DNA of 36,496 nucleotides from Anaeromyxobacter soli (lineage in GTDB: Bacteria; Myxococcota; Myxococcia; Myxococcales; Anaeromyxobacteraceae), in NCBI RefSeq assembly GCF_022808855.1, contig NZ_JAKZLF010000042.1:1-36496 (forward strand), in the 5' to 3' direction. This document shows positions 1,070-10,340 of this stretch, one piece after another. The notes under the pieces were generated by a model that searched no databases, was not told where the DNA came from, and saw nothing but the letters and a program-made list of their open reading frames with translations. The translations under genes and the position numbers were made by a program. Numbering within the stretch: the stretch's first letter is position 1; each line of letters opens with the position of its first letter.

Positions 1070-1471
1070 ATGACGGGCGGCGAGGCGCAGCAGGGCGACC
1101 GGCGCGCCCGCGGGCGGGAGGCGGAGGCGATCGCCGCCGAGTTCCTCGTCCGGGAGGGCTTCGAGATCCTCGATCGCAACCACGGCACTCCGCGCGGTGA
1201 GGTGGACCTCGTCTGCCGCGAGGGCGGGATCGTGTGCTTCGTCGAGGTGCGGAGCCGCTCCTCGGACGCGCAGGGCGGACCGGAGGAGACGGTCGGTCGG
1301 GGCAAGGCGCGCCGCGTGGTGGCCGCCGCGACCGACTGGGCGCTCCGGAACGGCGGCCTCGAGCAGGAGCTGCGCTTCGACGTGGTCGCGGTCACGTTCG
1401 AGGAGGCGGGGCCGCGGGTGGAGCTCTACCGTGGGGCGTTCGACGGCGAGGGGAAGCCGGGACTGTGGTGA
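1070..1471 (+). CDS. yraN: YraN family (UPF0102) protein
   Basis: 133 residues, the normal length for UPF0102. The predicted fold is that of a restriction-endonuclease-like/Holliday-junction-resolvase-like domain. Visible family motifs are the N-terminal GREAEAIAAEFLVREGF helix, the GEVDLVCREG strand with the conserved acidic residue, and VCFVEVRSRS with the Glu-x-Arg/Lys active-site-like pair. Its biological role is not firmly established; in many bacteria it sits beside rsmI, exactly as here. The ATG at 1070 follows GAGGG closely. The stop overlaps the rsmI start (GTGA), so the two are translationally coupled. Confidence 0.93.
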   Translation: MTGGEAQQGDRRARGREAEAIAAEFLVREGFEILDRNHGTPRGEVDLVCREGGIVCFVEVRSRSSDAQGGPEETVGRGKARRVVAAATDWALRNGGLEQELRFDVVAVTFEEAGPRVELYRGAFDGEGKPGLW

Positions 1472-2349
1472 CCGAGGCGAACGAGCGGAATGAGGGCCGG
1501 CGCGGCACGCTGTACGTGGTCGCGACGCCGATCGGGAACCTCGGCGACCTCTCGCCGCGCGCCGCCGAGGTGCTCCGCAGCGTCCGGGCGGTCGCGGCCG
1601 AGGACACGCGCAGGACCCTGAAGCTCTACGCGCACCTCGGCGCGCCCGCGCCCGCGCTCCTGTCGCTCCCGGCCTTCGACGAGCGCGGCCGCGTCGCGGC
1701 GATCGTCGAGCGGCTCGTCGCGGGCGAGTCCGTCGCGCTCTGCACGGACGCCGGCACGCCCGGCGTCTCGGATCCGGGCGCGGCGCTCGTCGCCGCCGCC
1801 TGGGCGGCGGGCGCGACGGTCGTGCCGATCCCCGGCCCGAGCGCCGCGCTCGCCGCGCTCGCCGCGTCGGGCTTCCCCGCCGACCGGTTCCTCTTCACCG
1901 GGTTCCTGCCGCGCAAGGGCGCGGGACGCGCCGAGGCCCTCGCGCTCCTCGCCGCCACGCCGGCGACGCTCGTGCTCTACGAGGCGGGGAACCGGACGCG
2001 CGAGACGCTCGGCGATCTGGCCGAGGCGCTCGGCGACCGGGAGGCGCTCGTCGCGCGCGAGCTGACGAAGCTCCACGAGGAGCTCCTGCGCGGGCGCCTC
2101 CGCGAGCTCGCCGCCCGGCTCGCCGACGAGGTCCGCGGCGAGGTGACGCTCGTCGTCTCGAGCGAGGGGGCCGCGCCACCCGCGCGCCCGGCGCCGGAGG
2201 TGCCGCTCGCGGACGAGCTCGCGCGCAGGCTCGCGGCGGGCGAGCCTCCGTCGGCGATCGCGCGCGAGGTCGCCCGCGCCCGCGGGCTGAAGCGCGCCGA
2301 CGTCTACGCGGCCCTCGAGCGGCTGAAGCACGGCGCGAAGCCGGAGTAG
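1468..2349 (+). CDS. rsmI: 16S rRNA (cytidine(1402)-2'-O)-methyltransferase RsmI
   Basis: 293 residues starting at GTG 1468, which overlaps the yraN stop by four bases; this start removes an unrelated upstream extension. RsmI uses S-adenosylmethionine to 2'-O-methylate C1402 of 16S rRNA near the decoding site. The tetrapyrrole-methylase fold is clear: LYVVATPIGNLGDLSPRA at the N terminus, AAEDTRRT, LCTDAGTPGVSDPG (SAM-binding loop), PIPGPSAALAALAASGFP and FLFTGFLPRKG. The C-terminal region (about residues 225-290) is Ala/Arg rich and ends with a short helix-turn-helix-like segment (IAREVARARGLKRADVYAAL), also seen in other family members. Length and motif order are as expected. Confidence 0.96.
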   Translation: MTEANERNEGRRGTLYVVATPIGNLGDLSPRAAEVLRSVRAVAAEDTRRTLKLYAHLGAPAPALLSLPAFDERGRVAAIVERLVAGESVALCTDAGTPGVSDPGAALVAAAWAAGATVVPIPGPSAALAALAASGFPADRFLFTGFLPRKGAGRAEALALLAATPATLVLYEAGNRTRETLGDLAEALGDREALVARELTKLHEELLRGRLRELAARLADEVRGEVTLVVSSEGAAPPARPAPEVPLADELARRLAAGEPPSAIAREVARARGLKRADVYAALERLKHGAKPE

Positions 2350-2389: not shown

Positions 2390-3493
2390 CTAGAGGCCGC
2401 GATCGTCGCTCGAGGGCGCCTCGCGGCGCGCTCCTTCCAGGCCGGCGGCGCGGTCGAGCACCATGTCCGAGGAGCCGGGGAAGCGCGGGGGCGTGGCCGC
2501 CACGTCCACGAAGCCGTACCGCGCGTAGAGCCCCTGCGCGTCGCGCGTGGCGAGGCAGACGAAGCGCGTCCGCCGCACGGCGGGGTGGTCGAGGAGCAGC
2601 GTCATCACCCGCTTGCCGAGGCCCTGTCCGCGCCAGGACCGCGCGACCACCACGTCGTAGATCCAGGCGCGCCGCCCGTCCGACACCGCGCGCGCGGAGG
2701 CGACGAGCGCGCCGTCCGGCGACCGCGCGCCCACCCAGGCCGTCGCCCCGAGGTGCGCGGGCCCGATGAGCTCCCGCGCGACCCCCTCCCACCAGTACTC
2801 GCCGCCGAGGAGCGTCTCCACGGCCGGGAGGTCCTCGGGTCCGAGGGCGGCGTGCAGCCGGACCCCCTCCGCGGCGAGGAAGGGAGGCGTGGGCGCGGCG
2901 GGGTTCGCCTCGCGGATCGCCTCGATCGCCAGGGGGTCGCCGGGCGCGCCACGCTCCCACAGGCCGAGGAGGATGCGCTCGATCTCCTCGGGCGTCCGGT
3001 TCTGCAGGAGCTTCCACTTTCCGTCGATCCGCTCGAAGGGCACGAAGAAGACCCGCACGCCCTCGAGCTCGCCGCGGTAGAGCGGATCGCCGGCGTCGAT
3101 GGGCCGGTACCGCCCCTCGGGCTGCCAGCGGCGCATGAGGGCCTCGAGGGCCCGGGCCTTCGTGGCGGGATCCTCCACCGCCGTGAGCGTCCCGTGCACC
3201 TGCACGCTCCGGAAGAGGGTGGTGGCGGGGCAGGCGCGCACCGGGTCCACCATCCAGCTCGGGACGTGCGCCACCACCTCCTCGGCGGACACCACCGCCG
3301 GTCGGCCGAGGCAGGTCGCCTTCTCGCCGGCGTGGGCGCCGTGGAAGAAGACGCCGTCCTCGAGCACCGCTGCGTCGAGCGCGCGCAGCACGGGCGCGCC
3401 CGCGGGGGTGGTGGTGGCGAGGTGCACGACCGGCGCGCGGGCGAGGAGCGCCAGCGCGCGGGCCGGGTCGGCGCGGAAGATCTCTCGTCTCAT
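2390..3493 (-). CDS. Pyridoxamine 5'-phosphate oxidase-like domain fused to GNAT acetyltransferase
   Basis: 367 residues from ATG 3493. Residues about 1-190 form an FMN-binding split barrel of the pyridoxamine-phosphate-oxidase-like type (VVHLATTTPAGAPVLRALDAAV, then GVFFHGAHAGEKATCL, and a later FFVPFERIDGKWKLLQNRT segment). Residues about 225-345 form a GNAT N-acetyltransferase with the acetyl-CoA loop VVVARSWRGQGLGKRVM and the typical end LYARYGFVDV. The pair of catalytic domains on one chain suggests modification of an amine that the split barrel binds or oxidises; the substrate is unknown. The gene is divergent from a MocR/PdxR regulator 64 bases away, a common arrangement for PLP-related genes, so regulation by that protein is likely. 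No good Shine-Dalgarno is seen before the ATG. Confidence 0.87.
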   Translation of the reverse strand: MRREIFRADPARALALLARAPVVHLATTTPAGAPVLRALDAAVLEDGVFFHGAHAGEKATCLGRPAVVSAEEVVAHVPSWMVDPVRACPATTLFRSVQVHGTLTAVEDPATKARALEALMRRWQPEGRYRPIDAGDPLYRGELEGVRVFFVPFERIDGKWKLLQNRTPEEIERILLGLWERGAPGDPLAIEAIREANPAAPTPPFLAAEGVRLHAALGPEDLPAVETLLGGEYWWEGVARELIGPAHLGATAWVGARSPDGALVASARAVSDGRRAWIYDVVVARSWRGQGLGKRVMTLLLDHPAVRRTRFVCLATRDAQGLYARYGFVDVAATPPRFPGSSDMVLDRAAGLEGARREAPSSDDRGL

Positions 3494-3511
3494 GCCGGGA
3501 GCGTGGCCCGG

Positions 3512-3558
3512 CGCTGGTCCTGCGAAAAGGTCCAGTCCTGATAAACTCGATGGACCAG
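3512..3558. promoter_or_regulatory. Candidate MocR operator: three CTGGWCC half-sites
   Basis: The 64-base divergent spacer holds CTGGTCC at 3514-3520, GGTCCAG at 3529-3535 (CTGGACC on the minus strand) and GGACCAG at 3552-3558 (CTGGTCC on the minus strand). The outer two form a perfect inverted repeat. The last overlaps the regulator's own GTG, which would suit autoregulation. MocR/TauR/PdxR proteins are known to bind repeated short half-sites of similar sequence; that this array is the operator is inference. Confidence 0.55.
3542..3547 (+). promoter_or_regulatory. -10-like TAAACT box before the MocR gene
   Basis: TAAACT ends 10 bases before the GTG at 3558 and no Shine-Dalgarno precedes that codon. 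The position fits a transcript starting at or just before the start codon. No clear -35 is visible. The box lies between two operator half-sites, so bound regulator would cover it. Confidence 0.4.
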
Positions 3559-5093
3559 TGCGCACCTGGACCCTCGCCCTCGCCCTCGATCGCGACGACC
3601 CCGCGCCGCTCGCGGTGCAGATCGCCCGCGGCCTCGCCGCGCGCATGCGCTCGGGCGCGCTCGAGCCCGGGGCGGCGCTCCCCTCGAGCCGCGAGCTCGC
3701 CCGCGCGCTGGCGGTGCACCGCAACACGGTCCTCGCCGCGTACGGCGAGCTCGCCGCCGAGGGCTGGATCGAGGCCGCCCGGGCGCGAGGCACGTTCGTG
3801 TCGCGCGAGCTGCCCGCCCGTCCGCCGCGGCGCTTCGCGCCCCCGCCCGCGGGGCGCGCCGAGCGAGCCGGGTTCGACCTGCCGGCCGCGCCGGTGCCCG
3901 CCGTCGCGCCGCCGCCGCCCGGGGCGCTGCAGCTCCTCGGCGGCGTGCCCGACCCGCGCCTCGTGCCGGTGGCGGCCCTGGCCCGCGCCTACCGCCGCGC
4001 GCTGAGCAGGCGCGAGCACCTCGGCTACGGCGACGCGCGGGGGCACCCCCGGCTACGCGCGGCGCTCGCGCGGATGCTGGGCGAGGCGCGAGGGCTGGCG
4101 GTACGACCCGAGGGCGTGCTCGTCACCCGGGGCGCACAGATGGCGCTCGCCGTGGCCGCCCGCGGGCTGCTCCGCCCCGGCGACGCCGTCGCGGTGGAGG
4201 ACCTCGGCTACCGCCCGGCCTGGGAGGCGCTGCGGCTCGCCGGCCTGAGGCTCGTGCCCCTGAAGCTCGACGCCCGGGGCCTCGACGTGGAGGCGCTCGC
4301 GGCGCGAGCGGGGCCGGAGCGGATCCGCGCGGTGTACCTCACCCCGCACCACCAGTACCCGACGCTCGTCACCCTCTCGCCGGCGCGGCGGCTCTCGCTG
4401 CTCGACCTCGCGCGCAGGGCGCGGCTGGTCGTGCTCGAGGACGACTACGACAACGAGTTCCACTACGAGGGCCGCCCGGTGCAGCCGCTCGCGAGCGCCG
4501 ACGCGGCGGGCGTGGTCGTGTACGTCGGCTCGCTCTCCAAGGTGCTCGCGCCGGCCCTCCGCATCGGCTTCCTGGCGGGGCCGGAGGACGCCATCGCCCG
4601 CCTCACCGCGCACCGGCACTACCTCGACCGCCAGGGCGATCTCGCGGTGGAGGCGGCCGTGGCCGAGCTGCTCGAGGAGGGGGAGGCGCAGCGCCACGTG
4701 TGGCGCACGCGGAGGATCTACGCCGCGCGGCGCGAGGCGCTCGCGGACGCGCTGCGCGCCGAGCTCGCGGGCGCGCTCACCTTCGAGCAGCCACCCGGCG
4801 GGATGGCCTACTGGTGCCGCGTCGCGCCCGGCCTCGACGCCGAGGCGTGGGCCGACCGCGCCCTCGCGGCGGGGGTGGCGGTGCAGGCGGGCCGGCTCTT
4901 CGCCTTCGACGGCGGCTCCCCCCCGAACCTGCGGCTCGGCTTCGGCCGGCTCGACGAGCGCGAGCTCCGCGAGGCGGTCCGGCGCCTCGCGGGGGCGCTG
5001 GGGAGAGCGAGCGTGGCGGGCGGCGCGGCCGCCCGTCCCCTCAGAACTGCAGCACGCCCGCGACGGACAGGCCGAACACGCTCGTCTCGCTGA
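3558..5093 (+). CDS. MocR/PdxR family regulator (GntR HTH + class I aminotransferase domain)
   Basis: 511 residues from GTG 3558; longer upstream extensions run antisense through the neighbouring gene and are rejected. Residues about 15-80 are a GntR winged helix (LPSSRELARALAVHRNTVLAAYGELAAEGWI ends in the RGTFV wing; only the core is listed in parts: SSRELARALAVHRNTV). Residues about 110-490 are a fold-type I PLP aminotransferase domain used as a ligand sensor: VTRGAQMALAVAARGL, EDDYDNEFHY with the PLP-ring Asp, and SLSKVLAPALRIGF with the Schiff-base Lys near residue 328. Such proteins usually sense PLP or an amino compound and control vitamin B6 or amine metabolism; the divergent pyridoxamine-oxidase-like gene is the obvious target. 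The last 18 codons overlap the 3' end of the convergent gene at 5041. Confidence 0.92.
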   Translation: MRTWTLALALDRDDPAPLAVQIARGLAARMRSGALEPGAALPSSRELARALAVHRNTVLAAYGELAAEGWIEAARARGTFVSRELPARPPRRFAPPPAGRAERAGFDLPAAPVPAVAPPPPGALQLLGGVPDPRLVPVAALARAYRRALSRREHLGYGDARGHPRLRAALARMLGEARGLAVRPEGVLVTRGAQMALAVAARGLLRPGDAVAVEDLGYRPAWEALRLAGLRLVPLKLDARGLDVEALAARAGPERIRAVYLTPHHQYPTLVTLSPARRLSLLDLARRARLVVLEDDYDNEFHYEGRPVQPLASADAAGVVVYVGSLSKVLAPALRIGFLAGPEDAIARLTAHRHYLDRQGDLAVEAAVAELLEEGEAQRHVWRTRRIYAARREALADALRAELAGALTFEQPPGGMAYWCRVAPGLDAEAWADRALAAGVAVQAGRLFAFDGGSPPNLRLGFGRLDERELREAVRRLAGALGRASVAGGAAARPLRTAARPRRTGRTRSSR

Positions 5094-6527: not shown

Positions 6528-7940
<1,413 letters not shown>

Positions 7941-8084
7941 GGGGGTGCGTTACCACAGTCGACCGGTCTCCGCACGCGCGGCGCGCCTCGGGCCCGGTGC
8001 AGGGCTCTCGCCCGGCATTGCGCGGCGGAGGGTCGAGGGATCCCGTGCCGCCGGCGCCCGAGGCCGGGGCGCCCCGGGCCGGGC

Positions 8085-10340
8085 TCACGCCTGCTGCTTC
8101 TTGCGACGCTTCCGCCGGCGGCGGAGCCGCGCCGCGGCCTTGGCGCGCCGCCGCTCGCGGGCGCGGCGCTTCTCCTCCTCGTCGACGGGCGGCTTCGGCG
8201 ACTCGGGCGGCCGCTCTTCCCGGAGCCCCGGCAGCGAGATGAGGAACTCCGCGCCCTCGCCGGGCGACGAGCGGACCTGGATCGTGCCCTGGTGCGCCTT
8301 CACGAGGCGCTGGCAGATGGCGAGCCCGAGCCCGGTGCCCTTCTCCTTCGTCGTGTAGAAGGGCACGAAGATGCGCTCGCGGGCCTCGTCGGGGATGCCC
8401 GGGCCGCTGTCGCGGAACCGCACCTCGACGAGGTCGGCCTTGCGCATCCCCTCCCGCCAGAAGGCGAGCTCGTCGCGCGCGAGGCGCGTCGAGACGACGA
8501 GCTTGCCGCCGGCGGGCATCGCCTGGAACGCGTTCAGCGCGAGGTTCAGGAACACCTGCTTGAGCTGCTCGGCGTCGGCGTTCACGGGGGGGAGCCACTC
8601 CGCGAGCGCGAGCTCCACCGAGATCGTGGGCGGGACCTCCGCCTGGAGCAGCTTGAACGTCCGCGCGAGGACGTCGTTCACGTCGGTCGGCGCGAGGGCG
8701 GGCTTGAGCGGGCGCGAGTAGTCGAGGAACTGGGTGACCACGCCGTTCAGGCGGTTCACCTCCTCGATCACGATCTCGAGGAACTCGCGGTCCTCGCCGG
8801 GGAGCTTCGCGGGATCGAGGAACTGGACCGCGCCCTTGATGGCGGCGAGCGGGTTGCGGATCTCGTGGGCGAGGCCGGCCGACATCTCGCCGAGCGCGGC
8901 GAGGCGGTCGCGCTCCTTCATCTGCTGGTACAGCTTGGAGTTCTCGATGACGAGGGCGCACCGATCGGCGATCTCGATGAGGGCGGCGATCTCGTCGGAC
9001 GCGAAGGCCTCGGGGACGCGCTCGTCCCAGCAGGCGAGGAACCCGACCACGCGGTCGCCCGCGAGGAGCGGCATGCAGATCCCCGCGCGCATGGAGCACA
9101 TCACGGCGCGCGCGTCGCTGAGCCGCTTCAGCTCCTCGGCGACGGCCGCGGGCGCTCCCCGACCGCTGCGGCTCTCGTGCTCCGCAGGCCCGGGCGGGAG
9201 CATCGCCCGGAGCTCCGCCACCCGGCGGTCGATGTTCTCGAGCAGGATGGCCTTCTGGGTCGAGGAGGCCGCGGCGAGGAGGGCGCGCGCGGTCGCGGGC
9301 TCGAGGAACGGGACCGGGGGCGGGCCGCGGAAGTCGAGGAGCCGGTAGCCGGGGCGATCGTCCGCCACGAGCCAGAGGGAGGTGTGCGTCGCCCGGCGCG
9401 TCTCCACGAGGCCGTCGAGCACCACCTCGGCGAGGCCGGCGGGCTCGATGACCTTGCCCGTCCGCTGGCGGAGGGCCTCGAGGCGCCGCACGAGCTCGTA
9501 GCGCTCGCGGAACAGCGTCGCGACCACCCACTCCTCGACCCGCTCCCGCATCGGCTCGAACAGGGACAGGATCACGAACGACGCGACGATGGTGTTGAAG
9601 TAGAAGAGCTCGGGCCGGTCACCCACCCACGACACGAGCCCGCCGTAGATCGCGACGAGCACGAGCCCGAGCGCGGTCACCACGACGATCTTCCCGAGGA
9701 ACTCGTGCAGATCGAGCAGCCGGTGGCGCTGCAGCGTCTGCGACAGGAAGAACATGAAGATGGTGAGGGTGATCGAGCCGAGCCCCTCGGGCGGATAGGG
9801 GAGGCCGAGCAGCGGGAGCATGTCGAGCGTCGACAGGAGCACCGCGACGACCGCGCCGAGGAAGAGGTACTGGAGGCGCGCGCGCTCGACCCGCGTCTGC
9901 GAGGCGTGCATCTTGCCCCAAAGCACGGAGACCACCACCGCGAGCCCGCCGACCACGTAGGTCGCGACGAGGAGCTTCGCGGCCTTGAGCTGCACGAGCG
10001 GGGTGACGGCGACCACGATCCCGGAGAGGGACCCCGCGAGCATGGCGTTCCGGGCCCGGCGCGCCGGCCGGCGCGCGACGCCCAGGAACTCCAGGAAGAA
10101 GGCGAGCGCCGCGGCGGGGATGAGGCCGCCCGACGCCACCGCGAGCCGCTCCCACCAGGGGACCCCGAACGCCTCGGACCAGCGCAGGAAGAAGCTCGCG
10201 AGGGAGAAGAGGCACAGATCCGCGGCGAAGAGCGCGAACAGGGTGAACACCCGCGAGCGGTTCTCGCGCAGGAGCGCGGCCGCCGAGAGCGCGAGCGTCA
10301 CGATCGCGGCGAGCAGCGCCGCCTGGGTCCGGATGTCCAC
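8085..10340 (-). CDS. Membrane sensor histidine kinase with GAF domain and basic tail
   Basis: 751 residues from GTG 10340. The first ~265 residues contain seven or eight hydrophobic helices, resembling the multi-TM N-terminal sensor regions of histidine kinases. A GAF-like domain follows (about 300-475; contains GICMPLLAGDRVVGFLACWD). HisKA has the phospho-His at 492 (LAHEIRNPLAAIKGA). HATPase motifs are NLALNAFQAM (N box), DSGPGIP (G1), FVPFYTTKEKGTGLGL (F and G2). The last ~30 residues are almost entirely Lys/Arg/Ala, an unusual ending. It phosphorylates the NtrC-type regulator encoded next. A TAGGAT box nine bases before the GTG, with no Shine-Dalgarno, suggests a leaderless message. Confidence 0.93.
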   Translation of the reverse strand: MDIRTQAALLAAIVTLALSAAALLRENRSRVFTLFALFAADLCLFSLASFFLRWSEAFGVPWWERLAVASGGLIPAAALAFFLEFLGVARRPARRARNAMLAGSLSGIVVAVTPLVQLKAAKLLVATYVVGGLAVVVSVLWGKMHASQTRVERARLQYLFLGAVVAVLLSTLDMLPLLGLPYPPEGLGSITLTIFMFFLSQTLQRHRLLDLHEFLGKIVVVTALGLVLVAIYGGLVSWVGDRPELFYFNTIVASFVILSLFEPMRERVEEWVVATLFRERYELVRRLEALRQRTGKVIEPAGLAEVVLDGLVETRRATHTSLWLVADDRPGYRLLDFRGPPPVPFLEPATARALLAAASSTQKAILLENIDRRVAELRAMLPPGPAEHESRSGRGAPAAVAEELKRLSDARAVMCSMRAGICMPLLAGDRVVGFLACWDERVPEAFASDEIAALIEIADRCALVIENSKLYQQMKERDRLAALGEMSAGLAHEIRNPLAAIKGAVQFLDPAKLPGEDREFLEIVIEEVNRLNGVVTQFLDYSRPLKPALAPTDVNDVLARTFKLLQAEVPPTISVELALAEWLPPVNADAEQLKQVFLNLALNAFQAMPAGGKLVVSTRLARDELAFWREGMRKADLVEVRFRDSGPGIPDEARERIFVPFYTTKEKGTGLGLAICQRLVKAHQGTIQVRSSPGEGAEFLISLPGLREERPPESPKPPVDEEEKRRARERRRAKAAARLRRRRKRRKKQQA

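Follow-up and report, generated by a model that had tools for sequence, protein, structure and literature searches.

Described Systems Closest to the Locus

Among the regulons described for MocR-type transcription factors, those of PdxW come closest to a two-gene unit that we analyzed in Anaeromyxobacter soli, within a stretch of 36,496 nucleotides (contig NZ_JAKZLF010000042.1; "the window" hereafter means this whole stretch). In the passages of Suvorova and Rodionov (2016; PMC5320631) that concern them, PdxW regulons pair pdxO with RimI/RimL acetyltransferases: a MocR has very few targets, mainly a pdxO-type protein and a RimI/RimL acetyltransferase, there is no transporter, and the operator boxes are repeated. 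The unit in the window is alike in these respects and differs in that the targets are separate genes there, whereas here both functions reside in one protein, a fusion of a split-barrel half with a GNAT acetyltransferase half. By analogy, the fusion and its MocR neighbor would be a fused version of a PdxW-type regulon and hence of a known kind, although a first-pass annotation of this DNA had considered that the pairing could not be assigned to a known pathway. Among open-licence papers, none was found on such a fusion with a MocR, nor any that joins MocR with Anaeromyxobacter.

For the split-barrel half, the closest described proteins in fold are PaiB and the piperazate synthases (PZS), with flavin-binding split barrels close behind. 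In the piperazate synthase SbPZS, His61 is the residue that holds the heme, and a part in catalysis is ascribed to Thr102 and Lys173; PaiB binds heme and is reported to share the heme-ligand His61 and Asn66, as well as the Thr and the Lys (these statements follow the active-site passages of PMC13274692).

The reading that we favor, with slightly better than even confidence, is that the unit encodes a bifunctional enzyme handling amines or N-hydroxylamines, with a PaiB-like N-terminal half binding heme (or flavin), under autoregulated MocR control dependent on pyridoxal 5'-phosphate (PLP).

Layout of the Unit

The features to which the text refers are as follows.

2390–3493, minus strand: fusion gene, 367 amino acids, PaiB-like/Pyridox_ox_2 split-barrel half plus GNAT half (Pfam; AlphaFold model with a mean predicted local distance difference test score, pLDDT, of 93.6)
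2894–3493, minus strand: N-terminal split-barrel half, about residues 1–200, with His51, Thr91 and Lys161 (Pfam, alignments, fold match)
2444–2869, minus strand: GNAT half, about residues 209–350 (Pfam, Protein Data Bank (PDB) match, fold match)
3514–3520, plus strand: operator box 1, CTGGTCC (CTGGWCC match, conserved spacing)
3529–3535, minus strand: operator box 2, CTGGACC (CTGGWCC match, conserved spacing)
3542–3547, plus strand: weak -10-like TAAACT between boxes 2 and 3
3552–3558, minus strand: operator box 3, CTGGTCC, overlapping the GTG of the regulator by its final plus-strand base, the G at 3558 (CTGGWCC match, conserved spacing)
3558–5093, plus strand: MocR/PdxR-type regulator, 511 amino acids, predicted GTG start at 3558; GntR helix-turn-helix at residues 19–81, aminotransferase-like part at residues 137–477 (Pfam, NCBIfam)
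3566–3572, plus strand: fourth CTGGACC, within the MocR coding sequence, holding the invariant Trp4 codon
4539–4541, plus strand: codon of K328, the putative PLP lysine

The two genes diverge from a 64-bp spacer, and both their arrangement and their domains agree with the first-pass annotation. In the fusion, the Pfam families are Pyridox_ox_2 at residues 10–159 and GNAT at residues 251–328. The regulator scores 53.9 bits for GntR and 107.7 bits for Aminotran_1_2, exceeds the NCBIfam cut-off for PdxR (PLP_TF_PdxR, 355.5 bits vs. 320) and matches GabR structures; it belongs to the MocR/PdxR group, with a GntR winged helix joined to a fold-type I aminotransferase domain that carries an SLSK lysine. 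This lysine, K328, which we take to be the one that binds PLP, is present in 12/12 aligned MocRs, including that of the window. A second MocR lies on another contig of the same genome (locus L080, 4154–5734, contig C26); it shares 60% identity with the MocR of the unit across residues 1–415, may change frame close to its end and differs in its upstream sequence.

A Predicted Three-Box Operator in the Spacer

The three spacer boxes are exact matches to CTGGWCC, with starts 15 and 23 bp apart (3514, 3529 and 3552). They had been recognized in the first-pass annotation, which did not mention the fourth copy at 3566. The Trp read from this fourth copy is invariant in the 12 aligned MocRs; because the box contains that codon, it was left out of the operator, and it is probably coding sequence. 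Read towards the fusion, the orientation of the three boxes is "-> -> <-", the commonest published MocR operator (245 regulons) in the table of PMC5320631.

Across the whole window CTGGWCC is not enriched: its count of 16 is only mildly above the expected 11.65, and 13 of 100 shuffles reach it. The cluster is what is unusual, since four boxes fall in one 64-bp stretch, while the maximum in 300 dinucleotide shuffles was three, a density reached in 2 of them. A scan of the organism's own genome for the operator returned a single perfect site, at the fusion/MocR pair, and two other matches with 3 mismatches each; a reversed control pattern likewise gave 2 matches.

Two details of the earlier description hold in part. 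One box had been said to cover the regulator's GTG; box 3 does overlap the start, sharing only its last base with it. The same half-site had been said to flank a -10-like box, and TAAACT does occur there, at 3542–3547; in this region the promoter scan gave nothing of the sigma-70 type, and the claim of a -10 element stays weak. From the position of TAAACT alone, the regulator mRNA may be leaderless.

Conservation of the Operator and of the MocR Neighbor

The first-pass annotation had proposed counting the genomes in which the same two-domain protein lies next to a MocR. Searches yielded 43 full-length, single-frame fusion proteins, of which two are duplicates (L162 of L038, L165 of L045), leaving 41 distinct loci, partly related to one another (L005, L006 and L008 are 94–95% identical; L041 and L043, 90.5%). 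A MocR adjoins the fusion in 34 of the 41, divergently in 31 and downstream in the same direction in three (L051, L167, L171). These comprise a first set of 25 loci with an adjacent MocR (24 divergent, and L051) and a later set in which MocR is adjacent in 9/9 (7 divergent, plus L167 and L171). The regulator is more distant in L052 (about 2.2 kb downstream) and L054 (about 1.8 kb away, divergent), and none was found at L004, L010, L011, L039 and L056, the contig of L039 being only 4.7 kb long.

When the operator was required at the fixed spacing of 15/23 with at most 4 mismatches in 21 positions, it was present in 22 of the 25 first-set loci. Over 284 alternative spacings the mean was 0.38 loci and the maximum 9, the latter perhaps because the boxes, being self-complementary in part, overlap in register; with the reversed pattern the count was 0. 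In the later set the operator was present in 5 of 9 loci (L163, L166, L167, L168, L170). Where the MocR is more distant, the operator was found in L052 with 1 mismatch, and in L054 with 6 mismatches at fixed spacing and 1 when one base of slack was allowed. It was absent from four of the five fusion loci in which no MocR was found, and four further MocR-less loci, whose genes are partial, broken or limited to the split barrel (L014, L044, L062, L063), gave no operator either. At another locus, L053 (from position 1501), the tblastn alignment to the fusion continues beyond its stop codon into downstream sequence.

Some loci count against control of the fusion by this operator. L045, L046 and L047 in the first set lack it at fixed spacing (with one base of slack, p = 0.046, 0.132 and 0.007, respectively), and L164, L169, L171 and L172 in the later set lack it at the threshold; an earlier test, in which the spacing could vary by ±1 base, had passed L047 and L054, which do not pass at fixed spacing. 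Conversely, L056 keeps an operator with 2 mismatches and has no MocR that could be found.

According to one explanation, the boxes lie together by chance or act in autoregulation only, with the fusion as a bystander. The near-expected frequency of CTGGWCC in the whole window and the overlap of the operator with the regulator start would fit it, but it is made very improbable by the geometry conserved in 22/25 loci and by the adjacency of MocR in 34/41. Moreover, the fusion keeps its upstream operator even where the MocR lies downstream of the fusion gene (L051, L167), is some 2.2 kb away (L052) or was not found (L056). Operator conservation and the co-occurrence of operator and MocR are direct observations, and the predicted control of the fusion by the adjoining MocR, as the first-pass annotation had proposed, is well supported by comparative genomics.

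Distribution, and the Association of Each Half with MocR

In the phylum of the window, 28 of 195 genomes match the fusion at an E-value of 1e-25, 21 of them with a single frame across both halves. Matches across both halves number 12 in the phylum of genome G197, a set of 188 genomes to which the Myxococcales record of L038 belongs, and the phylum of G195 has one full match in 194 genomes, in G195 itself, in addition to distant fused forms in G787 and G801. For the 398 genomes in the phylum of G198, a Bordetella genome, there was no both-halves match among the matches listed at an E-value of 1e-10, with at most five candidates scored per genome, and no plasmid record covers 80% of either query. 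Distant fused forms adjoin a MocR in four loci (L088, L175, L176, L179). Two of these, L176 and L179, from the phylum of a metagenome-assembled genome labelled Cyanobacteria, are Pyridox_ox_2–GNAT fusions divergent to a MocR-like gene, in which the 15/23 operator was not found.

The two halves were also followed separately. Standalone relatives of the GNAT half had a MocR or split-barrel profile match within 1.5-kb flanks in 0/30 loci, and GNAT-only loci of the G195 phylum in 0/12; of the loci with a plain PaiB gene in the window's phylum, 0/25 have it beside a MocR. Since neither standalone GNAT relatives nor plain PaiB genes are near MocR in the flanks examined, the MocR goes with the fusion unit. 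The domains are separate, unrelated genes, the outcome that the first-pass annotation had named as contrary to its reading, in the case of the standalone GNAT relatives and not in that of the fusion itself. Two loci keep the split barrel alone beside a MocR, L012 and L025 (operator with 2 and 4 mismatches, respectively; about 12.5 kb free of any GNAT profile match), compared with one, L087, that has a MocR, an operator read by eye and a GNAT, with no recognized split barrel.

The GNAT Half

The C-terminal half is sound as a GNAT fold: it scores 37.9 bits for Acetyltransf (cut-off 20.7) and reaches a VIA-align Z of 17.4. Its best PDB sequence match is the GNAT protein XCC2953 (2ozh; 76.5 bits with the fusion profile), which differs in being standalone, and the relatives of this half elsewhere are not beside a MocR in the loci examined. 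The first-pass annotation had it acetylating the B6-like amine or a related one, which is a putative substrate.

A PaiB-Like N-Terminal Half

Foldseek placed the piperazate synthases LnzB and KtzT first for the AlphaFold model of the fusion; next came the FAD (flavin adenine dinucleotide)/heme protein 4ybn, PaiB and NimA. With VIA-align, in which rows within 1 Z of each other count as tied, the best match of the N-terminal half was heme-bound PaiB (Z 17.6, 192 aligned residues, 3.3 Å), followed by LnzB (17.1), PipS (16.7), KtzT (16.6) and the N-hydroxylamine dehydratase NohD (15.7–16.4). Among the open-licence papers listed, none bore the name NohD, and none was a structural paper on His71 of NimA. 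Of these proteins PaiB and LnzB alone stand clear of the flavin-type rows in Z, and the better argument for the PaiB group is its coverage of the C-terminal helices. Both hhalign and VIA-align match the full-length PaiB fold with these helices, the former at 98.7% across 191 columns against 11 Myxococcota PaiB proteins.

The residues follow the same register. In the hhalign alignment, with the register read by eye, His51 pairs with the H of the PaiB motif H-x-A-R-x-N, Thr91 with the T of PTWNY and Lys161 with the K of KLSQN; in the 43 aligned fusions (two duplicates included) His51 is found in 43/43, Thr91 in 40/43 with Ser in the other 3, and Lys161 in 40/43. The PaiB motif KLSQN of the 11 aligned PaiB proteins is itself absent, being KLLQN in the window and KLGQN in the consensus of the relatives, in which the Lys, the Gln and mostly the Asn are kept and the Ser is not; the half is therefore called PaiB-like and not PaiB. 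It is like PaiB (heme-bound 9vyc; 2ol5) in whole-domain fold, His position and a KLxQN motif, and differs from it in sequence (17% identity over the structural match) and in having a GNAT and an adjacent MocR. The piperazate synthases (KtzT, PipS, LnzB, SbPZS) and NohD are likewise similar in fold and in the positions of the ligand His, the Thr and the Lys. Their signature, KLSQ flanked by Met and Glu according to the part of PMC10888640 that defines it, is not found: the window has WKLLQN and the consensus AKLGQN. Heme binding by the N-terminal half, of which the conserved mark is the position of the ligand His, is our preferred guess.

Several observations speak for flavin or against the PaiB comparison. 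The flavin-type split barrels 2fur (Z 15.8, 153 residues), 2fg9 (15.5, 145) and 2hti (15.3, 123) tie in Z with the PZS and NohD rows, over fewer residues; a fold search with the whole fusion ties 2fg9 (15.7) and PaiB (15.6); and a profile search ranks PaiB (1.2e-8) about level with the flavin-nucleotide-binding BH0577 (3.4e-8). Asn66, which contacts a heme propionate in PZS and lies five residues from His61, the same gap as in H-x-A-R-x-N of PaiB, is replaced by Gly56 in the fusion. His51 belongs to an HGAxxGEK motif like that of NimA, Pyridox_ox_2 is the top Pfam family for all 26/26 N-terminal halves (85–87 bits for the fusion), and the distant fusions of L088, L175, L176 and L179 outscore that of the window for this family. 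The failure of plain PaiB genes to occur beside a MocR belongs on the same side. In favor of the PaiB family, its Pfam model FMN_bind_2 lies above the cut-off of 22.4, at 25.7 and 27.6 bits, and is matched by 24/26 N-terminal halves at an E-value of 0.01 or less, but its scores are lower than those of Pyridox_ox_2.

These results lend themselves to an alternative in which the N-terminal half is a NimA-like enzyme dependent on flavin, either a reductase or a detoxifying one, that acts with the GNAT on a nitro- or N-oxidized compound. The fusion resembles the NimA/Pyridox_ox_2 flavin-nucleotide-binding family in its best Pfam family and in the HGAxxGEK motif with its invariant His, and the flavin-binding split barrels and NimA (Z 14.9–15.8) come close to PaiB. 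Even so, this is rather unlikely, as the NCBIfam model NimABCDEF gives 19.1 bits, far below its cut-off of 260, NimA aligns over 151 residues compared with 192 for PaiB, and the extra C-terminal helices of the fusion are matched by PaiB instead.

Alternatively, the split barrel might be non-enzymatic and regulate the GNAT half as a sensor of heme or flavin. PaiB is described, in the portion of PMC13274692 that deals with it, as a heme-binding transcriptional regulator without N-N bond-forming activity. The equivalents of the catalytic residues of piperazate synthase, Thr91 and Lys161, are mostly kept in the fusion, an argument against a sensor that is weak because PaiB keeps both too (PMC13274692); we regard a purely sensory half as improbable.

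Relation to Vitamin B6 Metabolism

The first-pass annotation had proposed that the fusion oxidizes or binds a B6-like amine. In its full form, this would make the N-terminal half an oxidase of the pyridoxine 5'-phosphate (PNP) oxidase type that uses flavin mononucleotide (FMN) and oxidizes pyridoxamine or its 5'-phosphate, with the GNAT acting on a B6-like amine, in a PdxW-type regulon for B6 salvage. The PdxR call above its cut-off, the Pyridox_ox_2 score of 85 bits and the composition of PdxW regulons, mainly pdxO plus RimI/RimL acetyltransferases in the corresponding part of PMC5320631, favor it. However, PNPOx_N falls below its Pfam cut-off (27.3 vs. 28.1 bits), and PNP_phzG_C has no match in the fusion protein at E-values up to 1; by these sequence models the fusion is not a member of the PNP oxidase (PdxH) family. 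The genome of the window has a separate pdxH-type gene (PF10590 match), and its only Pyridox_ox_2 protein is the fusion, which is therefore not the backup of a second copy. A role in the B6 pathway through a missing pdxH was rejected on account of that gene. Four other fusion-bearing genomes (G006, G009, G010, G015) have no PF10590 match, and there the fusion could in principle replace pdxH. With heme-bound PaiB as the nearest fold and flavin-binding split barrels close behind, the N-terminal half resembles a heme-protein fold no less than a B6 oxidase, so that the annotation's oxidase is unlikely, though not negligible.

In the genome of the window, contig C1 (locus L081, 5129–6751) has a pdxH-type gene with a divergent GNAT-like gene, a weak relative of the GNAT half of the fusion. 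Genome G003 likewise has a GNAT match about 1.1 kb from a PF10590 match, on contig C55.

Proposed Mechanism

In the bifunctional-enzyme reading that we favor, the two genes would form a small self-contained unit. The PLP-binding MocR would occupy the three-box operator, repress its own promoter and switch the divergent fusion gene once PLP has reacted with an amine-type ligand. The PaiB-like split barrel, probably holding heme (or flavin) near His51, would act on an amine or N-hydroxylamine, and the GNAT half would acetylate the same or a related amine. PLP binding, autoregulation and the use of acetyl-CoA would be expected from what is known of these families; the cofactor, the substrate and the direction of regulation proposed here are guesses.

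As a highly speculative extension, the unit might protect PLP. The PLP of the MocR would be a bait for reactive nitrogen nucleophiles able to trap PLP, such as hydroxylamines, hydrazines or stray amines, whose trapping would induce the fusion, so that the heme half dehydrates the N-hydroxyl group and the acetyltransferase caps the amine.

On either side of the unit, one block of flanking genes is found in the window (1070–2349 and 6528–10340). By eye, one of these blocks looks like a YraN/RsmI pair, and the opposite one combines what seem to be a sigma-54-type response regulator and a sensor kinase.

Significance

The unit would be a compact MocR regulon outside the usual systems for PLP synthesis, gamma-aminobutyric acid (GABA) and taurine, and the fusion physically joins two activities between which shared regulation had been the earlier link. 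Should the heme reading be true, some "pyridoxamine phosphate oxidase" proteins under MocR control may instead be heme proteins similar to PaiB, and the ligands predicted for their MocR regulators would change.

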